Below, piece by piece: positions 7,404-63,048 of a stretch of 64,000 nt of DNA; the stretch's first letter is position 1, and the number at the start of each line of letters is the position of its first letter. This DNA is from Bacillus sp. F19 (GTDB lineage: Bacteria; Bacillota; Bacilli; Bacillales; Bacillaceae). The notes beneath the pieces were generated by a model that ran no database searches, was not told the origin of the DNA, and worked only from the letters and a program-made list of their open reading frames with translations. The translations under genes and the position numbers were made by a program. The stretch lies in NCBI GenBank assembly GCA_023823795.1, contig CP085710.1, positions 770,001-834,000 on the forward strand. Direction: 5' to 3'.

Positions 7404-7413
7404 ACAATAAATA

Positions 7414-8568: not shown

Positions 8569-8928
8569 TTAAAGTTCGTTCATTCCGAACAATAATCCTA
8601 TAAATGCCAATAATAGCCCGCCAGCATATGAGAAGAGGAGATATTTAATAAGAACAGACTTGTTTTTCTTTTCTCTCAGCTGGATATTCTCCAGTTTGAA
8701 TGTGGAAAACGTTGTAAAAGCTCCCATAAATCCAATGCCGAACATCGCATAAAAGCTTTCAGAAACCCCTTTTCCAGTCATCCACCCGAGCAAGAATGAG
8801 CCGGCTAAATTGACTGTGAGTGTGCCGATCGGAAATCCAGTCTGACTTTTTATATTCATCTGTGAGCTGATGATAAAACGGGCAATTGCCCCTAAAAATC
8901 CCCCTGCAGCAATTAATAATAAGTTCAT
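8569..8928 (-). CDS. crcB: Fluoride channel subunit CrcB/Fluc (second copy)
   Basis: A 119-aa protein with four membrane helices. It has the family signatures GGFLGAIARF near residue 8 and GFMGAFTTFSTFKLE near residue 66, which form the fluoride pore and central sodium site. The start ATG overlaps the stop of the first crcB by 4 nt, so the pair is translationally coupled. Gram-positive bacteria often have two Fluc genes whose products form a heterodimer; the two here differ enough to fit that. Expression depends on the fluoride riboswitch upstream of the pair. Confidence 0.94.
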   Translation of the reverse strand: MNLLLIAAGGFLGAIARFIISSQMNIKSQTGFPIGTLTVNLAGSFLLGWMTGKGVSESFYAMFGIGFMGAFTTFSTFKLENIQLREKKNKSVLIKYLLFSYAGGLLLAFIGLLFGMNEL

Positions 8929-9323
8929 GATGCAGCTTCGCCCCTTTTCTTGAACATGCGGCGTCCCAGGGTGTAACCGTACCACGTCACGAAAAGCCCT
9001 CCTGCAAAACTGAGCAGCACATAGAAAAACGCCATGAGGATTGAACCGCTCCGAAGCAGCAGAACCGTTTCAACGCTAAACGTGGAAAAGGTTGTGAATG
9101 AGCCGACAAGACCTGTTCCGAACCCTGCTAAAATATGAGGATGAAAGAGCTTCAGCCTCACAATACTAGTTGTAAACCATCCAAGAATAAAGCAGCCAAT
9201 TAAATTCGCAAGAAGGGTTCCCAAGGGAAAACCATTGCTGAGCCAAGGGTGAGTAAGCACGCCTAAAGAATACCTCAGTAAACTGCCAATTATTCCACCG
9301 GCACCGATCAATAAATAATTCAT
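8925..9323 (-). CDS. crcB: Fluoride channel subunit CrcB/Fluc (first copy)
   Basis: A 132-aa, four-helix Fluc protein with GGIIGSLLRYSLG at the N-terminus, PLGTLLANLIGCFILG, and GLVGSFTTFSTFSVE near residue 76. It lowers cytoplasmic fluoride by passive export. GGAGGT lies 7 nt before ATG 9323. It is the first gene after a fluoride riboswitch and is co-transcribed with the second crcB. The C-terminal tail (RRMFKKRGEAAS) is basic and cytoplasmic. Confidence 0.94.
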   Translation of the reverse strand: MNYLLIGAGGIIGSLLRYSLGVLTHPWLSNGFPLGTLLANLIGCFILGWFTTSIVRLKLFHPHILAGFGTGLVGSFTTFSTFSVETVLLLRSGSILMAFFYVLLSFAGGLFVTWYGYTLGRRMFKKRGEAAS

Positions 9324-9345
9324 CTTGCAAACCTCCCATTTCAGA

Positions 9346-9428
9346 TAAAAAAATAGACTCCTGCCCACATTGATTATGAGCAGGAGTCATCAGCTCAGAG
9401 GCGGTTATGGCGAACTCCATCGCCTATC
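9346..9428 (-). ncRNA. Fluoride (crcB) riboswitch with intrinsic terminator
   Basis: Read on the minus strand, the core GGCGATGGAGTTCGCC, then ATAA, GCTGATG and ACTCCT matches the crcB-motif aptamer closely. The terminator stem GACTCCTGC / GCAGGAGTC (9356-9388) overlaps the aptamer's 3' pseudoknot strand and is followed by a U run. This is the known ON-switch design: fluoride binding prevents terminator formation and turns on the two crcB genes. Confidence 0.95.
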
Positions 9429-9582
9429 ATCATGTCTTAATAGGCTTATTTTAATAATGAACCCTATTTTTTAAAAGTTTTTGTCATGTGGAAATCTATA
9501 TAAAAACTCATAAAAACTTCACATCATTATTATAAAATAAAGATTATACTTTGGTATAGAACTTTAAAGCGGGGTCTGAATT

Positions 9583-10257
9583 GTGAATACAATAACGGTT
9601 ATGATCATTGATGATGAAGCAGCAATGAGAGCACTGATAAAAACATTTCTAGTCATTGAGGGCTATTCAGTCATTGAAGCTTCTAATGGCATGGAGGCTC
9701 TTGAAATGATAAATCATGAAGCGCCGGATCTTATTGTCGCGGACGTTATGATGCCATATATGGATGGATTTTCATTTGCAGCTGAATTGAAAAAGAACCA
9801 TCACATTCCCCTCATTTTTCTTTCTGCGAAAGGGGAAGAATGGGATAAAATACAGGGCCTGAAGCTTGGCGGAGATGATTATATCGTAAAGCCGTTTCAC
9901 CAGGGAGAGCTTCTGGCAAGGATTGAATCTGTTTTAAGAAGAGTGAGGCAGAGCAGCGTCTTGAGTAATCGTCTAACAGTTGGTCCGCTTGTTCTTGATG
10001 CATCTGGCTATAAAGCGCTGATAAAAAATCAGCCCTTGCCTTTAACTTTAAAAGAATTTGAGATCCTGTCTCTGCTGGCAAGAAATAAAGGGACTGTTTT
10101 TACTAGAGAACAGCTCCTGCAAACAGTTTGGGGAGTAAATTATATTGGCACAGGGCGAACAGTGGATACTCATATCAAAACACTGAGATTAAAATTGAAG
10201 GATCACGCATACCTCATTCAAACAGCATGGGGTGTAGGCTATAAATTTGAGGTGTAA
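9583..10257 (+). CDS. OmpR/PhoB-type response regulator
   Basis: A 224-aa two-domain regulator. The receiver domain spans residues 1-120 with acidic pocket D10/D11, phospho-acceptor D54 (IVADVMMPYMDG) and K103 (IVKPF). The C-terminal winged helix runs from about 128 to 224 (LTLKEFEILSLLARNKGTVFTREQLLQTVWG, TVDTHIKTLRLKL). GTG is the start. The sensor kinase gene begins 3 nt after its stop. No target genes are evident. The upstream region (9480-9540) has AT-rich direct repeats that could be an autoregulatory site. Confidence 0.93.
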   Translation: MNTITVMIIDDEAAMRALIKTFLVIEGYSVIEASNGMEALEMINHEAPDLIVADVMMPYMDGFSFAAELKKNHHIPLIFLSAKGEEWDKIQGLKLGGDDYIVKPFHQGELLARIESVLRRVRQSSVLSNRLTVGPLVLDASGYKALIKNQPLPLTLKEFEILSLLARNKGTVFTREQLLQTVWGVNYIGTGRTVDTHIKTLRLKLKDHAYLIQTAWGVGYKFEV

Positions 10258-10260
10258 TGA

Positions 10261-11655
10261 TTGAAACGTCTGAACTTAAGCCAGAAAGTGCTGATGCTGA
10301 TCGGCATCTGCATCATTTTCAGTATCTTATTCTCGTTCTTTTTTCTTCATTTTTTATATAAAGAATTGTACTTTAACAGCATTAAAGAGTCTGTCATTTA
10401 TCAGGGCGAGCGGACTGCTGCCCACTATCATTACGGTTCACTGAGTGATGAAATTATTGAAAAAATTCACTGGTACAATGTCGTTTCTGAATATGAAGTG
10501 ATTGTACTGGATGATATTGATGATTTAAGCGCATATTTTCCCTATGAAGTGAACTATGAAGCTCTTATAACAGGTGAAGACCGCAAAATCCTTGAAAATG
10601 GAGATTACATTGTAAAGGATGGCTACGTAAAAGAATTGAACCGGGAAATTATAGGCGCCGTCTTCCCGATTATGGGCGAAAAAGGGCTTATAGGTTTCAT
10701 CTATATATATGTTCCATTAGCAGATCTTCAAGAAGTATTCGAAGGCAGTCTGCCAATTCTGCTGCTTGTCGGTTCTCTCTTTTTTATGATACTCTTTTTA
10801 GCCGTTAATCAAATTCGGCGATCCCTTTTTCAGCCGCTGAATGAGTTTCAGGAATTTTCAAGAGAAGTGTCAAAGGGCAATTACTCAAATCGCCTTCTAA
10901 ACAAAAATCATGATGAAATTGGGCAGCTGGCGCACGCCTTCAATTCCATGAGTCAGTCCCTTGAAGAGCAAGAAGCCAGGAAAAAAGAGTTTCTTGCAAA
11001 TGTCGTGCATGAGCTTCGAACGCCTCTAACTTATATTGGAGGGTACAGTCAGGCGCTTAAACACCAAATGTATGCTTCACCTGAAGAAGCGGATCACTAT
11101 TTGATGACGATTGAAAGAGAGACGAATCGCCTGAATAAGCTGATAACCGATTTAATTGACCTTGGTCATCTTCAGGAAAACATGTACACGCTGAATGCTG
11201 AACCTATAGCGATTGTTCAGCTATTTTTAGATACCCTTGCATTATTTGATATTAGAATTAATGAAAAGAAGCTAAAAACAGAACTGGATATTCATGAAGA
11301 TCTAGTCGTTACAGGCGATCCTAAACGGCTGCAGCAAGTATTCTACAATCTCCTGGATAATGCTATAAAGTATTCTTCGGAGGAAAGCTATATTAAAATG
11401 ACCCTTACTGAGGAAAACAAACAGCTATTGTTTCGTTTGAACAATAAGGGAAATGAAATATCAGAAGATGATCTGGCCCAAATAGGAGAACGTTTTTTCC
11501 GTACGGACAAAGCAAGAAGCCGAGTGACAGGCGGAACAGGTCTTGGTATTTCAATAGTAAAAGAAATTGTCAGGCTGCATGAAGGTGAATTTACGATCAG
11601 CAGCGATAAATCAAACGGAACAACTGTAACCGTTATATTGCCAGGATTATTATAA
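10261..11655 (+). CDS. Sensor histidine kinase (HAMP, HisKA, HATPase)
   Basis: A 464-aa membrane kinase. Helix 1 is at about residues 10-33, an extracellular sensory loop at 34-162, helix 2 at 163-185, HAMP at 186-240, the dimerisation helix with H250 (VVHELRTPLTYIGG), and an ATPase domain with an N box (QVFYNLLDNAIKYS) and G boxes (TGGTGLGISIVKEIVRLHEG). The start is TTG. It phosphorylates the adjacent regulator. The extracellular loop is acidic and contains two His and several Tyr residues, but no recognised ligand domain. The stimulus is unknown; the fluoride genes and the repeat array nearby do not identify it. Confidence 0.93.
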   Translation: MKRLNLSQKVLMLIGICIIFSILFSFFFLHFLYKELYFNSIKESVIYQGERTAAHYHYGSLSDEIIEKIHWYNVVSEYEVIVLDDIDDLSAYFPYEVNYEALITGEDRKILENGDYIVKDGYVKELNREIIGAVFPIMGEKGLIGFIYIYVPLADLQEVFEGSLPILLLVGSLFFMILFLAVNQIRRSLFQPLNEFQEFSREVSKGNYSNRLLNKNHDEIGQLAHAFNSMSQSLEEQEARKKEFLANVVHELRTPLTYIGGYSQALKHQMYASPEEADHYLMTIERETNRLNKLITDLIDLGHLQENMYTLNAEPIAIVQLFLDTLALFDIRINEKKLKTELDIHEDLVVTGDPKRLQQVFYNLLDNAIKYSSEESYIKMTLTEENKQLLFRLNNKGNEISEDDLAQIGERFFRTDKARSRVTGGTGLGISIVKEIVRLHEGEFTISSDKSNGTTVTVILPGLL

Positions 11656-11663
11656 TTCAGCTT

Positions 11664-11693
11664 AAACCGTCCCATTTTTTGGGACGGTTTTTT
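11664..11693 (+). terminator. Rho-independent terminator
   Basis: AAACCGTCCC / GGGACGGTTT stem followed by TTTT. It ends the two-component operon and lies before the repeat array. Confidence 0.93.
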
Positions 11694-11775
11694 GCTTATT
11701 GATTAAAAGTGAAGTTTCAGTTCGTAATCATCGATAAGATCAAAGAGTATGAGTTGTATACGCCTGAAATGGAAA

Positions 11776-13335
11776 AAAGTGTAATAATCACCGCATATGA
11801 GTCATATAAAACGCCCAAACAGGAAAAAAGGTGACACAAACACCTCTTATGAGTCATATAAAACGCCCAACCAGGAAAAAAAGTGTCGCAAACACTGCTT
11901 ATGAGTCATATAAAACGCCCAACCAGGGGAAAAAAGTGTCACAAACATCGCTTATGACTCATTTAAACCGCCCAACCAGGAAAAAAAGTGTCACAAACAC
12001 CTCTTATGAGTCATATAAAACGCCCAACCAGGGAAAAAAGTGTCACAAACACCTCTTATGAGTCATATAAACCGCCGAACCAAGGAAAAAAGTGTCATAA
12101 ACATTGCTTTTGAGTCGTATAAAAAGCCCAACCAGGAAAAAAAGTGCCACAAACACCTCTTATGAGTCATATAAACCGCCCAAGCAGGAAAAAAAGTGTC
12201 GCAAACACTGCTTATGAGTCATATAAACCGCCCAAGCAGGAAAAAAAGTGTCGCAAACACTGCTTATGAGTCATATAAACCGCCCGACCAGGAAAAAAAG
12301 TGTCACAAATACTGTTATGAGTCATATAAAACGCCCAAGCAGGAAAAAAAGTGTCACAAACACCGTTATGAGTCATATAAACCGCCCAACCAGGAAAAAA
12401 AGTGCCACAAACACCGCATATGAGTCAAATAAACGCCCAAGCAGGAAAAAAAGTGTCACAAACACCTCTTATGAGTCATATAAACCGCCAAACCAGGAAA
12501 AAAAGTGTCGCAAACACTGCTTATGAGTCATATAAACCGCCAAACCAGGAAAAAAAGTGTCGCAAACACTGCTTATGAGTCATATAAACCGCCCAACCAG
12601 GAATAAAAGTGTCACAAACACCTCTTATGAGTCATATAAACCGCCCAACCAGGGAAAAAAGTGTCACAAACACCTCTTATGAGTCATATAAACCGCCAAA
12701 CCAGGAAAAAAAGTGTCGCAAACACTGCTTATGAGTCATATAAATCGCCCAACCAGGAAAAAATGTGTCACAAATACTGTTATGAGTCATATAAAACGCC
12801 CAAGCAGGAAAAAAAGTGTCACAAACACCGTTATGAGTCATATAAACCGCCCAACCAGGAAAAAAAGTGCCACAAACACCGCATATGAGTCAAATAAACG
12901 CCCAAGCAGGAAAAAAAGTGTCACAAACACCTCTTATGAGTCATATAAACCGCCAAACCAGGAAAAAAAGTGTCGCAAACACTGCTTATGAGTCATATAA
13001 ACCGCCAAACCAGGAAAAAAAGTGTCGCAAACACTGCTTATGAGTCATATAAACCGCCCAACCAGGAATAAAAGTGTCACAAACACCTCTTATGAGTCAT
13101 ATAAACCGCCCAACCAGGGAAAAAAGTGTCACAAACACCTCTTATGAGTCATATAAACCGCCAAACCAGGAAAAAAAGTGTCGCAAACACTGCTTATGAG
13201 TCATATAAATCGCCCAACCAGGAAAAAATGTGACAAACACCTCTTATGAGTCATATATACCGCCCAACCAGGAAAAAAAGTGCCACAAACACCGCATATG
13301 AGTCATATAAAACGCCAACCAGGGGAAAATGTGTC
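11776..13335. repeat. Array of thirty ~52-bp tandem repeats
   Basis: I counted 30 copies of a unit whose parts, in order, are TTATGAGTCATATAAA, CCGCCCAACCAGG, an A6-8 tract, GTGTCACAAACAC and CTCT/TGCT. The mean spacing is about 51.8 bp, close to five helical turns. Each unit holds the 11-bp palindrome TATGAGTCATA and a GTGT...ACAC inverted repeat. Twenty-six copies keep the palindrome exactly; copies near 11956, 12115, 12424 and 12889 vary. The period is usually not a multiple of three and no frame runs the array, so it is non-coding. It fills the space between a kinase terminator and the sco promoter. Base substitutions are concentrated in CCGCCCAAC (AC/CC/CA) and GTGTCA (GTGTCG, GTGCCA). 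The function is unknown. Confidence 0.97.
12301..13230. repeat. Two 465-bp tandem copies within the 52-bp array
   Basis: Bases 12301-12765 and 12766-13230 appear identical by eye, including rare variants such as GAATAAAAG, TCAAATAAACG and AAATCGCCC. Each block holds nine 52-bp units. This shows a recent block duplication inside the older array. Confidence 0.9.
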
Positions 13336-13494
13336 TCCATCCGCTATAAAAGAGGCTTCAATCATACCAGAGTGAATCAGGCGCATTGCTTTTCTTCATT
13401 TTTCTCAAATTCTCTGTTTTTTTCTCACAGTAATTTCACAATCATTATGTACGCTTTAGTTACTAAAAATCTACTACAAAATGGAGGTGGAAAA

Positions 13495-14058
13495 ATGAAA
13501 AAAACGATGTTTCTTTTGCTGATTCTTATCTGTGTTCTTCTAAGCGCATGTCAATTTAATGACGAAAAACCTTATCAAATGAAATCGTTCACTTATACAA
13601 ATCAAGATGGCGAGGCTTTTGGTACCGATGATTTAAAAGGAAAGGTATGGATTGCCGATTTCATTTTCACTAGCTGTGAAACTGTATGTCCGCCAATGAC
13701 AGCAAACATGGCAGCTCTGCAGAAAGATTTGAAAGAAGAAGAACTCACGGTGGAACTTGTTTCGATCAGTGTGGACCCATCCGTCGATACTCCAGAAAAG
13801 CTTCAAGCATTCATGCAAAGGTTTACAGAAGATGAATCCAACTGGAATATGCTTACGGGCTATTCTCAGGAGGAAATTGAGAAATTTGCAAGAGATGAAT
13901 TTCAAACTCTTGTACAAAAACCTTCATCATCTGACCAAGTGATACATGGAACTAATTTTTACTTAATCAACAAGAATGGTGAAATCGTAAACGATTATAG
14001 CTTTACACATGGAAATCATTTCAAAAAAATCATTGCTGATGTGAAGAAACAAATGTAA
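13495..14058 (+). CDS. SCO1/SenC-family copper lipoprotein
   Basis: A 187-aa lipoprotein: signal peptide with lipobox (LLSAC, Cys at about 18), then a thioredoxin-like Sco fold. Copper ligands are the CxxxC motif TSCETVCPP and the distal His in QVIHGTNFYLI. It delivers copper to, or reduces, the CuA site of cytochrome c oxidase on the outer face of the membrane. AATGGAGGTGG precedes ATG 13495. An in-frame opening extends upstream into the repeat array, but it lacks a ribosome binding site and would destroy the signal peptide. It is the first gene of an operon with a PepSY membrane protein and a YtkA-like lipoprotein. Confidence 0.94.
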   Translation: MKKTMFLLLILICVLLSACQFNDEKPYQMKSFTYTNQDGEAFGTDDLKGKVWIADFIFTSCETVCPPMTANMAALQKDLKEEELTVELVSISVDPSVDTPEKLQAFMQRFTEDESNWNMLTGYSQEEIEKFARDEFQTLVQKPSSSDQVIHGTNFYLINKNGEIVNDYSFTHGNHFKKIIADVKKQM

Positions 14059-14071
14059 AAGGAGAACGTGC

Positions 14072-15484
14072 ATGATTACTAGTGAGAGAAACTATCAAGA
14101 GGGAAACGCGGGACAAGCTCCATTAAGGACTTCAAACAGCAAAACAAAAACGTCCATTTATCAAGCTGTTTGGAGGTGGCACTTTTACGCTGGCATCATT
14201 TTTGCGCCATTTCTAATTATTTTAGCCTTTAGCGGAGGAGTATATCTTTTCAAACCACAGATAGAAGATTATCTATATAAAGATATGTACTATGTCGAGG
14301 AAGAAGGATCAAGAACACTTTCTCCATCCGCTCAAGTTTCAAACGTGCAGAATAAATATCCTGATGCAGCCGTAACATCAATCAAATTTTATGAGGATCC
14401 GATGCGGACGACTGAGCTTGGATTGATGCAGAATGAAAAAATGACTTCCATTTACGTAAATCCTTACAACGAGGACATTCAGGGAAGCTTAAAAGCAGAG
14501 GGAAAATTCTCGGAGATTTTTAAAAAGATTCATAGTGAATTGCTTGTCGGCGGTACCGCCGCAAATAGACTTGTGGAGCTTGCAGCCTGCTGGGCGGTGA
14601 TCCTCTTAATCACAGGTTTATATATTTGGTTCCCTAGAAATAAAGCTTCCATCTGGGGAACTATTTTACCGAGGTTTACGAAAAAAGGAAGAACGTTTTG
14701 GCGTGATATGCATGCCGTGCCCGCCTTTTGGTTTTCAGCTGCAATTTTAGTATTGATTGCAACAGGACTTCCTTGGTCAGGGGTAATGGGGGAGCAGATG
14801 AATAAATTAGCCACAGCCACAAATACAGGAGCTCCGCCATTTGCTTATAGCTGGGGGGAAAAGCCAGAGTCTAAAATTAAGACACAGGATGTTGCAGAAG
14901 AGGTGCCGTGGGCAGCTGAAAACCTTCCTGTTCCATCATCGTCCAGCGCAAAGTATGTTCCGATTTCACTTGAGGATGTTCAATACATTTCTGAAAATGA
15001 AAAAGTGGCAAAACCATATACGATCTCCTTCCCGCAAGGTGAGAAGGGTGTTTATACGATTTCATCATCGAATCCAAATCCAAGTGATGATGCGACATTA
15101 CACATTGATCAGTACAGCGGGACAGTTTTAACTGACGTTAGGTTCAGTGATTACGGAATCATGGCAAAAGTGATATCCCTGGGCATTTCCCTGCATGAGG
15201 GTACATTATTTGGTCTTGCCAATCAGATTATAGGATTAATTGTTTGTTTGGGATTGATCGGATTGGCTGTAAGCTCCTTTATTATGTGGAGAAAGAGAAA
15301 ACATGAAGGGAAATCAGGCGCACCAGCTCAATCGAAAAACATAAAGGCTGTCAGAGGAGTTTTATTTATTATGCTGATACTTGGACTGATCATGCCGTTA
15401 GTCGGAATTTCAATCATAGCAGTCTATTTATTGGATCGATTTCTTTTTGTGAAAATCAAACCTCTTAAAGCATGGATAGGATGA
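14072..15484 (+). CDS. PepSY-associated transmembrane protein
   Basis: A 470-aa membrane protein of the PepSY_TM family. The first helix (FYAGIIFAPFLIILAFSGGVYLF) is preceded by VWRWHF. An extracellular region follows, then helices near residues 170-188 (WAVILLITGLYIWFPR), 215-235, 385-405 (QIIGLIVCLGLIGLAVSSFIMW) and 425-455. Conserved His residues (WRWHFYAG, IHSELLVG, MHAVPAFW, LHEGTLFG) could bind metal or heme. Relatives occur with iron or copper acquisition genes and act in metal reduction or transport. AAAGGAG precedes ATG, 13 nt after sco. The position in a Sco/YtkA operon suggests a role in copper handling for oxidase assembly. Confidence 0.85.
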   Translation: MITSERNYQEGNAGQAPLRTSNSKTKTSIYQAVWRWHFYAGIIFAPFLIILAFSGGVYLFKPQIEDYLYKDMYYVEEEGSRTLSPSAQVSNVQNKYPDAAVTSIKFYEDPMRTTELGLMQNEKMTSIYVNPYNEDIQGSLKAEGKFSEIFKKIHSELLVGGTAANRLVELAACWAVILLITGLYIWFPRNKASIWGTILPRFTKKGRTFWRDMHAVPAFWFSAAILVLIATGLPWSGVMGEQMNKLATATNTGAPPFAYSWGEKPESKIKTQDVAEEVPWAAENLPVPSSSSAKYVPISLEDVQYISENEKVAKPYTISFPQGEKGVYTISSSNPNPSDDATLHIDQYSGTVLTDVRFSDYGIMAKVISLGISLHEGTLFGLANQIIGLIVCLGLIGLAVSSFIMWRKRKHEGKSGAPAQSKNIKAVRGVLFIMLILGLIMPLVGISIIAVYLLDRFLFVKIKPLKAWIG

Positions 15485-25082: not shown

Positions 25083-25403
25083 CTCAGTCAGCACGGCTAG
25101 GGCAAAAAAGTCAGATCCTTATCTGCCCGTCGGAGCGGACATTGGCGATTCCGCTAAGTTACCTAGCTCCACCTCCTAACTCCTCGGCCAGAACAAATTC
25201 CCCGAAAAAGGCAAAATCGGCCTTTTCCGGTGAATTCTTATCTGTCTGTCGGAGCTGAACAGTCGGTTCCGCTTTTCTAAGTTGTCTAGCTCCACCTCCT
25301 AACTCCTCGGCCAGAACAAATTCCCCGAAAAAGGCAAAATCGGCCTTTTCCGGTGAATTCTTATCTGTCTGTCGGAGCTGAACAGTCGGTTCCGCTTTTC
25401 TAA
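25083..25403. repeat. Dispersed hairpin repeat: one partial and two tandem 123-bp copies
   Basis: A 3' half-copy (25101-25156) is followed by two nearly identical units starting at 25165 and 25288. Each reads AGCTCCACCTCCTAACTCC, CGGCCAGAACAAATTCCCC, a short GGCAAAATCGGCC hairpin, GGTGAATTCTTATCTGTCTG and TCGGAGCTGAACAGTCGG. Each can fold into a long imperfect hairpin. Related copies are at 38126, 44711 and 57318. The run between the YkvA and YugP genes holds no gene. Confidence 0.92.
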
Positions 25404-27762: not shown

Positions 27763-27884
27763 ATAACAAGGAGCTATGCTTGAACTGAAGTCAAACAGAA
27801 ATTAATTATTCTGAACCTTTTAATATCCATTGTTCAATTGAACCAATTCCTATATACTTCTAACTATTACTTATAATTTTTATA

Positions 27885-27957
27885 TTCTTGTATAATTTCA
27901 GTTAAGATGGTCTGATCGTTTCTACCTGGCAGCCGCTAAAATGCCAGACTACAAGAA
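27885..27957 (+). ncRNA. Purine-class riboswitch aptamer (guanine-like variant)
   Basis: The P1 arms TTCTTGTA and TACAAGAA pair perfectly. Inside are TATAAT at the P1/P2 junction, a P2 hairpin (TCAG/CTGA) with ATGG in the loop, the core GTTTCTACC, a P3 stem TGGCA/TGCCA with loop GCCGCTAAAA, and GACTAC leading into P1. The loop GG and CC needed for the L2-L3 kissing contact are present. The pyrimidine that sets specificity (position 74) reads C, as in guanine-type aptamers. The P2 stem is short and its loop longer than usual, so ligand assignment is uncertain. Nothing else is seen in the 430-bp gap apart from the expression platform. Confidence 0.85.
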
Positions 27958-28074
27958 GGTATGAGCAACAAAAATGAGAAGATGTGAATGGTATGATATG
28001 CTAATCATCGATTATCCTGTTTGCTTATGAGGATTATCTTTGTATTTCGTATTGAAAAACGATTCCGTGTGCAC

Positions 28075-35124: not shown

Positions 35125-35216
35125 GAAAGTCTCGGAATAAATTCCAAAAGTCTTGGAATAATGTCTGAAAGTCTCGGAATAAATTCCAAAAGTCTTGGAA
35201 TAAAGTCTGAAAGTCT
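35125..35216. repeat. 21-bp minisatellite, four and a half units
   Basis: Two 21-bp types alternate: GAAAGTCTCGGAATAAATTC(C) and AAAAGTCTTGGAATAATGTC(T). Units start at 35125, 35146, 35167, 35188 and 35209 (partial). The flanking region to 35320 holds no gene. Confidence 0.93.
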
Positions 35217-62741: not shown

Positions 62742-62827
62742 CAAACGATAGAATAAAAGGGTGCAAGCAGTCCTATTATTAACCATCGTTCCATCTCCTC
62801 AGTCCCCGAAGAATTCGAAACTATAAG

Positions 62828-62995
62828 CAATCAAATGGCAGGTCTCCTGACTTGTGATCATTCTGCGCTGAGTCCTTCCCATACTTAATCTTGTACAGTG
62901 GTAATCTCAGTTCGTCACACTTACAGTTGCGGGGACAGTTCCGGATTTGCACCGAATTCCCTTTTAAGCCAATAAATTGGCACCTTTGCTCGCTG
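62828..62995 (-). ncRNA. Cobalamin (B12) riboswitch
   Basis: Read on the minus strand, the hallmark segments appear in order: GGTGCC near the 5' end, GGGAATTCGGTGCAAATCCG, AACTGTCCCCGCAACTGTAA, GAAGGACTCAGCG and the B12 box AAGTCAGGAGACCTGCC (62837-62853). This is a full-length AdoCbl-type aptamer, directly upstream of a terminator and nrdA. Confidence 0.95.
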
Positions 62996-63000
62996 TTGTT

Positions 63001-63048
63001 TTTCAATATGTAGTATTGTATTTTTCATTAAATATCAATATGTTGTGT
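63001..63048. promoter_or_regulatory. Two NrdR boxes upstream of the nrdAB leader
   Basis: TATCAATATGTTGTGT (63033-63048) matches the NrdR consensus ACACAATATATTGTGT well. TTTCAATATGTAGTAT (63001-63016) is a weaker match. Their centres are 32 bp apart, three helical turns, the usual spacing for paired NrdR boxes. NrdR with ATP/dATP would repress from here. Confidence 0.85.

Follow-up and report, generated by a model that had tools for sequence, protein, structure and literature searches.

Tandem repeats with units of 51–53 nt are abundant in Bacillus, where they account for 1886 of the 4029 tandem repeats in 176 genomes and occur in about 30% of the species (PMC8161180). The 52 nt class described by Subirana & Messeguer (IJMS 2021, PMC8161180) is non-coding and consists of multiple differing families, of near-constant length and variable sequence, with short species-specific words that often occur along with their reverse; the sequences are specific to a species, apart from some overlap among close relatives, and the function was given as unknown. 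Most arrays have 4–10 units, though a few are longer. The length of 52 is near-constant and not absolute, because Table 1 of the same paper also gives families coded 50, 51, 53 and 54 nt, and the authors urge caution with this code. The Bacillus repeats of 20–21 nt described there likewise have a near-constant size close to whole helical turns, but with a two-turn unit and a sequence other than that of the 52-bp arrays (PMC8161180). A further report describes 52-nt arrays as transcribed in B. coagulans (PMC8625621). No literature on the class was found beyond Subirana & Messeguer, and the main text of PMC8161180 does not contain the terms ‘synten’, ‘orthologous’, ‘convergent’, ‘single copy’, ‘intergenic’ or ‘ancestral’.

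Two further systems invite comparison with the array described below, which lies between a sensor kinase gene and sco in Bacillus sp. F19. CRISPR arrays are also made of regular repeats, but the present array has no unique spacers and its unit repeats over the full length, so CRISPR was discarded. The MIRU-VNTR of mycobacteria include, at the senX3-regX3 locus, an intergenic minisatellite of about 50 bp adjoining a two-component system; they form one dispersed family, whereas the unit considered here is found at one locus. To the published class, the present comparison adds a single-copy precursor and sites that can be paired across collinear congeners. The preliminary description of the window (the whole stretch of 64,000 nt that was analysed) knew of no described system with this unit, which holds for the sequence of the unit and not for the class, already in print (PMC8161180).

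The array between the kinase gene and sco

TRF reports the array with a period of 52, 30.2 copies and a score of 2382, together with a second, higher-order period of 465 bp (Table 1). When it is cut, 30 units are obtained, 20 of them of exactly 52 bp, eight of 51 bp and one each of 53 and 50 bp; 29 of the 30 thus lie within the length range of the published class, which was taken as 51–53 nt, at least four copies and at least 60% of copies at one length within 1 nt. The array is as dense and regular as first described, with about thirty copies at some five helical turns per unit, and it does lie between the kinase gene and sco, preceded by a terminator-like hairpin. It was also correctly said to encode no protein, since the period is not a multiple of three and only short chance ORFs occur within it: of those of at least 60 aa, five are internal (75–92 aa) and one starts in the last units and enters sco. 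The mechanically called sco ORF begins at 13246, inside the array, and the start given in Table 1 was taken instead. A ‘sco promoter’ downstream of the array could not be substantiated, there being 0 sigma-70-like sites in 11500–13600, where shuffles have a mean of 4.5.

Table 1. Positions of the array and of its neighbours in the window.
Feature	Position	Strand	Basis
OmpR-type response regulator	9583..10257	+	Pfam Response_reg, Trans_reg_C
Sensor histidine kinase	10261..11655	+	Pfam HAMP, HisKA, HATPase_c
Terminator-like hairpin 3' of kinase gene	11664..11690	+	Alignable in G002 and G005
Possible degenerate unit directly upstream of array	11748..11772		By eye
52-bp satellite array, 30 units	11773..13335		TRF; units cut and aligned
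Nine-unit higher-order block, copy 1	12293..12757		465 bp; differs from copy 2 at one base
Nine-unit higher-order block, copy 2	12758..13222		465 bp, pairs with copy 1
Direct repeat TCTCACA-N4-TTTCACA, putative response-regulator site	13423..13440	+	Function inferred
sco (SCO1/SenC)	13495..14058	+	Pfam PF02630; start chosen by analyst
PepSY membrane protein	14072..15484	+	Pfam PF03929

Other elements of the window include a 21-bp tandem array of 4.3 copies (35125–35216), which belongs to the other constant-size class of Bacillus, a 123-bp element present twice (25154–25403) and three riboswitches found with Rfam: fluoride (9374–9433, minus strand), purine (27868–27971, plus strand) and cobalamin (62820–63001, minus strand). 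Two small ORFs at 8569–9368, preceded by the fluoride riboswitch, are presumably CrcB/FluC.

The units of the array are far from independent of one another, because the two nine-unit blocks differ by one mismatch in 465 bases. Among pairs of units nine apart, 8 of 21 are identical, against none at any other lag from 1 to 15, and 22 of the 30 units are distinct. Since the copies are not independent, selection was assessed by counting variable columns in the alignment of the units. It had been stated that every unit keeps the palindrome TATGAGTCATA, an A tract and a GTGT–ACAC inverted repeat, and the retention of the palindrome had been read as a sign of purifying selection. The count of 26 exact palindromes in 30 units is right, but none of the three motifs is universal, AAAAAA being present in 28 units and GTGT-N5-ACAC in 19. 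Purifying selection is not supported, as there is no excess of conservation: the palindrome has 5 variable columns among its 11 and the rest of the unit 24 among 41 (Fisher p = 0.51), 15 of the 52 circular 11-column windows are as invariant by column count, and 5 of 52, the palindrome included, are as quiet by number of deviating copies. The precursor found in two congeners (see below) has TGAGTCCTCT and lacks the palindrome. Recent copying explains the quietness of this stretch as well.

Arrays of 52 bp elsewhere in the genome

The census of tandem repeats covered 96 pieces of 20 kb (86 on contig C1 and 10 on C2) and the window, which amounts to 1,984,000 of 5,592,769 bases (a 35% sample; 11,688 bases masked). 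TRF gave 104 loci in all and 49 at the cut-off score of at least 100. Arrays of the present step number 22 in these 1.98 Mb, 21 of period 52 and one of period 53, two of them cut by the edge of a sampled piece; by extrapolation, the whole genome would hold about 60. The next-largest groups of periods are 120–124 bp (10 loci) and 21 bp (4 loci), and between 43 and 59 bp the only other locus at this score has a period of 48 bp and 2.0 copies. A special link between array and sco, as the preliminary description implied, finds no support in these numbers, because the genome has only two sco homologues. At L170:8092-10217 there is a 41-copy 52-bp array of other sequence that exceeds the window array in length. 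The repeats of 120–124 bp are mostly alike by eye, and three arrays of 122–125 bp occur in 400 kb of the congener G002. All 22 arrays of 52/53 bp are on the main contig (1.78 Mb sampled); contig C2 (507,307 bp; L198–L207), which partly matches Priestia, Peribacillus and Metabacillus plasmids, has no 52-bp array in the 0.2 Mb sampled and instead has arrays of 60 and 79 bp.

Loose single-linkage clustering places the units of these arrays in groups of 13 and 9, in keeping with the several families of the published class. The only links between the window unit and the group of nine are L186 and L170:18357 (scores 23 and 17, where the maximum of 150 shuffled pairs is 13). Searched with nhmmer, a dimer of the window unit matches the window array 24 times and L163 in a single stretch of its array (E 0.0069). 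Dispersed monomers are a weak candidate for the source of the arrays: each of 31 array-consensus dimers has 0–3 matches outside arrays in the sample and G002 (E ≤0.01), some of which are perhaps short arrays below the TRF cut-off.

A word shared by several families is TATGAGT, which is half of TATGAGTCATA. Of all 7-mers, ACTCATA/TATGAGT recurs in the largest number of arrays in this genome, 8 of 22 with the window array included, and is missing from the other 14 consensus units; when the window unit is shuffled, a 7-mer is shared as widely in 25 of 3000 cases (6-mers, 160; 8-mers, 67). This agrees in part with the short words and reverses common to arrays of one species in the published class. 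The 21 arrays other than that of the window contain TATGAGT at 5.50 per kb, sequence outside arrays at 0.103 per kb, and the G002 arrays once in 2526 bp. Its excess inside any one family follows from copying; the informative part is that it is common to the window unit and to seven arrays of the 13-array group.

Placement relative to genes was examined for 29 arrays of this genome and G002, two at piece edges being dropped from 31. Twelve of the 29 lie between convergent genes, as do 15.4% of the gaps without tandem repeats (crude ORF caller; p = 0.0007 by count and 0.0033 by gap length). Under tighter limits on ORF length the number is 11 (p = 0.0022 and 0.0076, respectively) or 10 (p = 0.0097 and 0.026), and with another ORF filter 13. 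The lean towards convergent gaps is suggestive only, and the window array itself lies between tandem genes.

Judged by its length, its non-coding sequence, the multiple families, the shared words and the species-specificity described below, the window array belongs to the published 52 nt class; it is longer, at 30 units, than most arrays of the class, and nothing excludes membership (PMC8161180). Its unit was compared with one published consensus alone, family 7_52_18 of B. indicus, and does not match. The same consensus matches two of nine G002 arrays (scores 38 and 51; 0 of 1000 shuffles each) and finds no match in the one array of a second congener, G005, or in the 22 arrays of this genome (best scores 6 and 10).

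Precursor and turnover in related genomes

A pattern of 20–21 bases from the window unit has no match with up to two mismatches in seven congeners. In 27 of 80 other family genomes, one or two scattered matches each were found with three mismatches (21-base pattern), and a reversed control is scattered too. By pattern, the window unit is therefore arrayed only here among eight genus and 81 family genomes, the own genome included. Another family is less restricted: probing with a piece of L142 gives 106 matches in the own genome, 134 in G001, 43 in G006 and 3 in G002, or four of the eight genus genomes, so that it is common to three of seven congeners, weakly in one. A scan of genome contigs with the paired ATGAGTCATA pattern, from which the own genome may be left out, returned 41 stretches, by title none of them from Bacillaceae and two from Paenibacillus and Cohnella. 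TRF finds arrays of period 51–54, with other units, in three of the 41. Two, L071:5577-5851 and L088:1-253, have periods of 53 and 54 and similar units, and belong to one assembly (Lachnospiraceae MAG RGIG7929); the third, L090:2282-3061 of Paenibacillus sp. SY21-1, is a 15-copy array of period 51. The units of all three contain ATGAGTCAT or GTGACTCAT.

By the 21-base pattern the 80 other family genomes thus lack the array, but the same gap of G002 and G005 holds a single degenerate copy of the unit. Both genomes are collinear with the own genome where compared, and their kinase–sco gap is about 205 bp, with 61 or 65 bp between conserved anchors. The degenerate unit scores 13 in G002 and 17 in G005, and 0 of 3000 dinucleotide shuffles reach either value; real windows reach the precursor score in 79 of 9983 cases in the 400 kb of G002 and in 0 of 1483 in G005. 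The two congeners do not provide independent observations, because they look like close relatives (anchors 95–97% identical). At seven loci of another genus (L045–L051), the distance from kinase to sco is about 10–40 bp as judged from alignment ends; it is longer at L052 and L053 (about 180 and 85 bp), and at L044 (G004) there is no kinase match within 1.5 kb upstream of sco. Absence of the array looks ancestral given the shorter gaps in outgroups. The single degenerate unit in the same gap of two congeners means that the array most likely grew in place in this lineage, and local expansion appears likelier than shrinkage in an ancestor common to the two congeners; this direction is read from outgroups whose gaps are shorter, and not from a close outgroup whose gap is the same.

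The site comparison set nine stretches of the own genome (280 kb) against G002:C1:1-400000, in which there are nine arrays, eight of period 52 and one of period 51; 60 kb of G005 contain one array of this class. Anchors in G002 exist for four own arrays, which TRF lists as five rows. One of these sites is empty in the congeners (13 bp in G002, 37 bp in G005); that of the window array has the single degenerate unit; that of L175 has one or two precursor units by eye (score 30, shuffle maximum 15); and that of L119 has 265 bp with 52-bp self-similarity (24, reached by 0 of 72 other lags), which the L119 unit itself fits no better than shuffles do (13, maximum 13). Conversely, two of the nine G002 arrays are without anchors, six face own sequence with neither the unit nor a 52-bp signal, and one corresponds to a degenerate 52-bp stretch that has some likeness to the unit (21, against a maximum of 15; lag score 20, reached by 0 of 72 others). 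At window position 7407 there is no array, whereas G002 has 3.3 copies (G002:C1:123144-123312) and G005 (L228–L230) has 19.1 copies of a closely similar 52-bp unit. The G002 array at this site is flanked by ATAAAGGCT/AGCCTTTAT (by eye). Arrays therefore differ between congeners while the 52-bp step stays, and at one site no recognisable unit is shared.

Explanations of the 52-bp step

Lengths of 52 and 21 bp correspond to about five and two turns of the DNA helix. In the three genomes, 32 arrays have periods of 51–53, and 30 of these are exactly 52 (one is 51 and one 53); restricting the range to 51–53 hides little, as periods of 43–59 in the own genome add only the 48-bp locus. When the 31 own and G002 arrays are aligned to their consensus, 101 indel openings are counted against 1299 substitutions (0.078 per substitution), the indels being nearly balanced between +1 (47 of 101) and −1 (43 of 101). 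At one substitution per site, about four indels per unit are expected, so free drift would spread the period, and no such spread is observed in the own and congener genomes. The fixed period supports constraint or repeated birth at 52, on the assumption that the families are old or related.

On balance we think it probable that the window array, one of the 52-nt satellites of the bacilli, is what a genome-wide process of fixed step has produced at this site, and that it is not a regulator specific to sco. One intergenic stretch lying between the kinase gene and sco would have been duplicated in tandem in this lineage; unequal exchange or slippage would then have extended the array, with a recent duplication of nine units (465 bp) among the events. 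Across the genome, the same process would create arrays, lose them and build them anew at a 52-bp step. The five-turn step might be set by a DNA-bound protein that favours TATGAGT/ACTCATA in several families of this genome and would either coat arrays on one face of the helix or guide their duplication. A neutral minisatellite is the main competitor, if a less likely one: random duplication and slippage in a tolerant gap, with 52 either inherited or accidental, would account for a palindrome conserved no more than chance, for the near-identical nine-unit block, which slippage or exchange is expected to leave, for the gain and loss of arrays between close relatives, and for the preference for convergent gaps away from promoters (12 of 29, or 10 of 29 with stricter gene calling). 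It accounts less readily for the clustering of periods, which at scores of at least 100 between 43 and 59 bp are 52 (21 arrays), 53 (one) and 48 (one) in the own genome and 52 (eight) and 51 (one) in G002, for an indel rate that should shift a freely drifting period by some bases, and for the predominance of the same length across Bacillus (PMC8161180).

The remaining readings give the array a function of its own, and both seem to us highly improbable. As a decoy or operator for the adjacent response regulator, it would tune sco; its position between the kinase gene and sco fits, and TTTCACA with one mismatch occurs 13 times within it. The putative operator TCTCACA-N4-TTTCACA, however, lies downstream of the array, aligns in the two array-free congeners and is found by eye upstream of the G004 sco, whereas the window array contains no exact half-site and no paired repeat of this kind with up to three mismatches; in addition, the genome has just two sco homologues and many 52-bp arrays. 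With the paired half-sites absent from the array, and the downstream pair itself putative, the decoy is without support. Alternatively, the array might be transcribed and act as RNA, or provide successive weak terminators on the minus strand, where many units have by eye a hairpin (AGTGT-loop-ACACT) and a T run. Two minus-strand terminator-like sites within the array and the transcription of 52-nt arrays reported for B. coagulans (PMC8625621) are consistent with this. However, shuffles give 2.5 terminator-like sites on average, against three found; two dimers, folded for both strands, do not clearly outdo shuffles (z −1.54, −0.13, −0.95 and −0.95); none of three predicted pairs is changed on both sides when 22 units are aligned; the array follows a terminator-like hairpin; and it contains no Rfam family at gathering score. 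A conserved RNA structure is thus unsupported by the z-scores and the pair changes. From the options that the preliminary description listed, the neutral minisatellite and the chromosome-organising element survive.

The main puzzle is the fixed length of 52, and not this single array; why some bacilli have many intergenic 52-bp arrays without shared sequence was left open in print (PMC8161180). Sites that are matched between congeners and are empty, or hold one precursor, a short array, a long array or a 52-bp period with replaced sequence, allow birth, turnover and length constraint to be tested. Tentatively, and with somewhat more doubt than confidence, we suggest that the heritable trait is length and not sequence, so that arrays would be born from local sequence and become unrecognisable in sequence within a genus while keeping the 52-bp step at the site. 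If so, either duplication would follow an inbuilt ruler of 52 bp or strong selection would keep a DNA-coating protein spaced along one face of the helix, and the chromosome would be structured by a system so far undescribed. Should a protein or an enzyme set the step, the arrays of Bacillus sp. F19 and its congeners would point to a new chromosome-structuring or repeat-making system.
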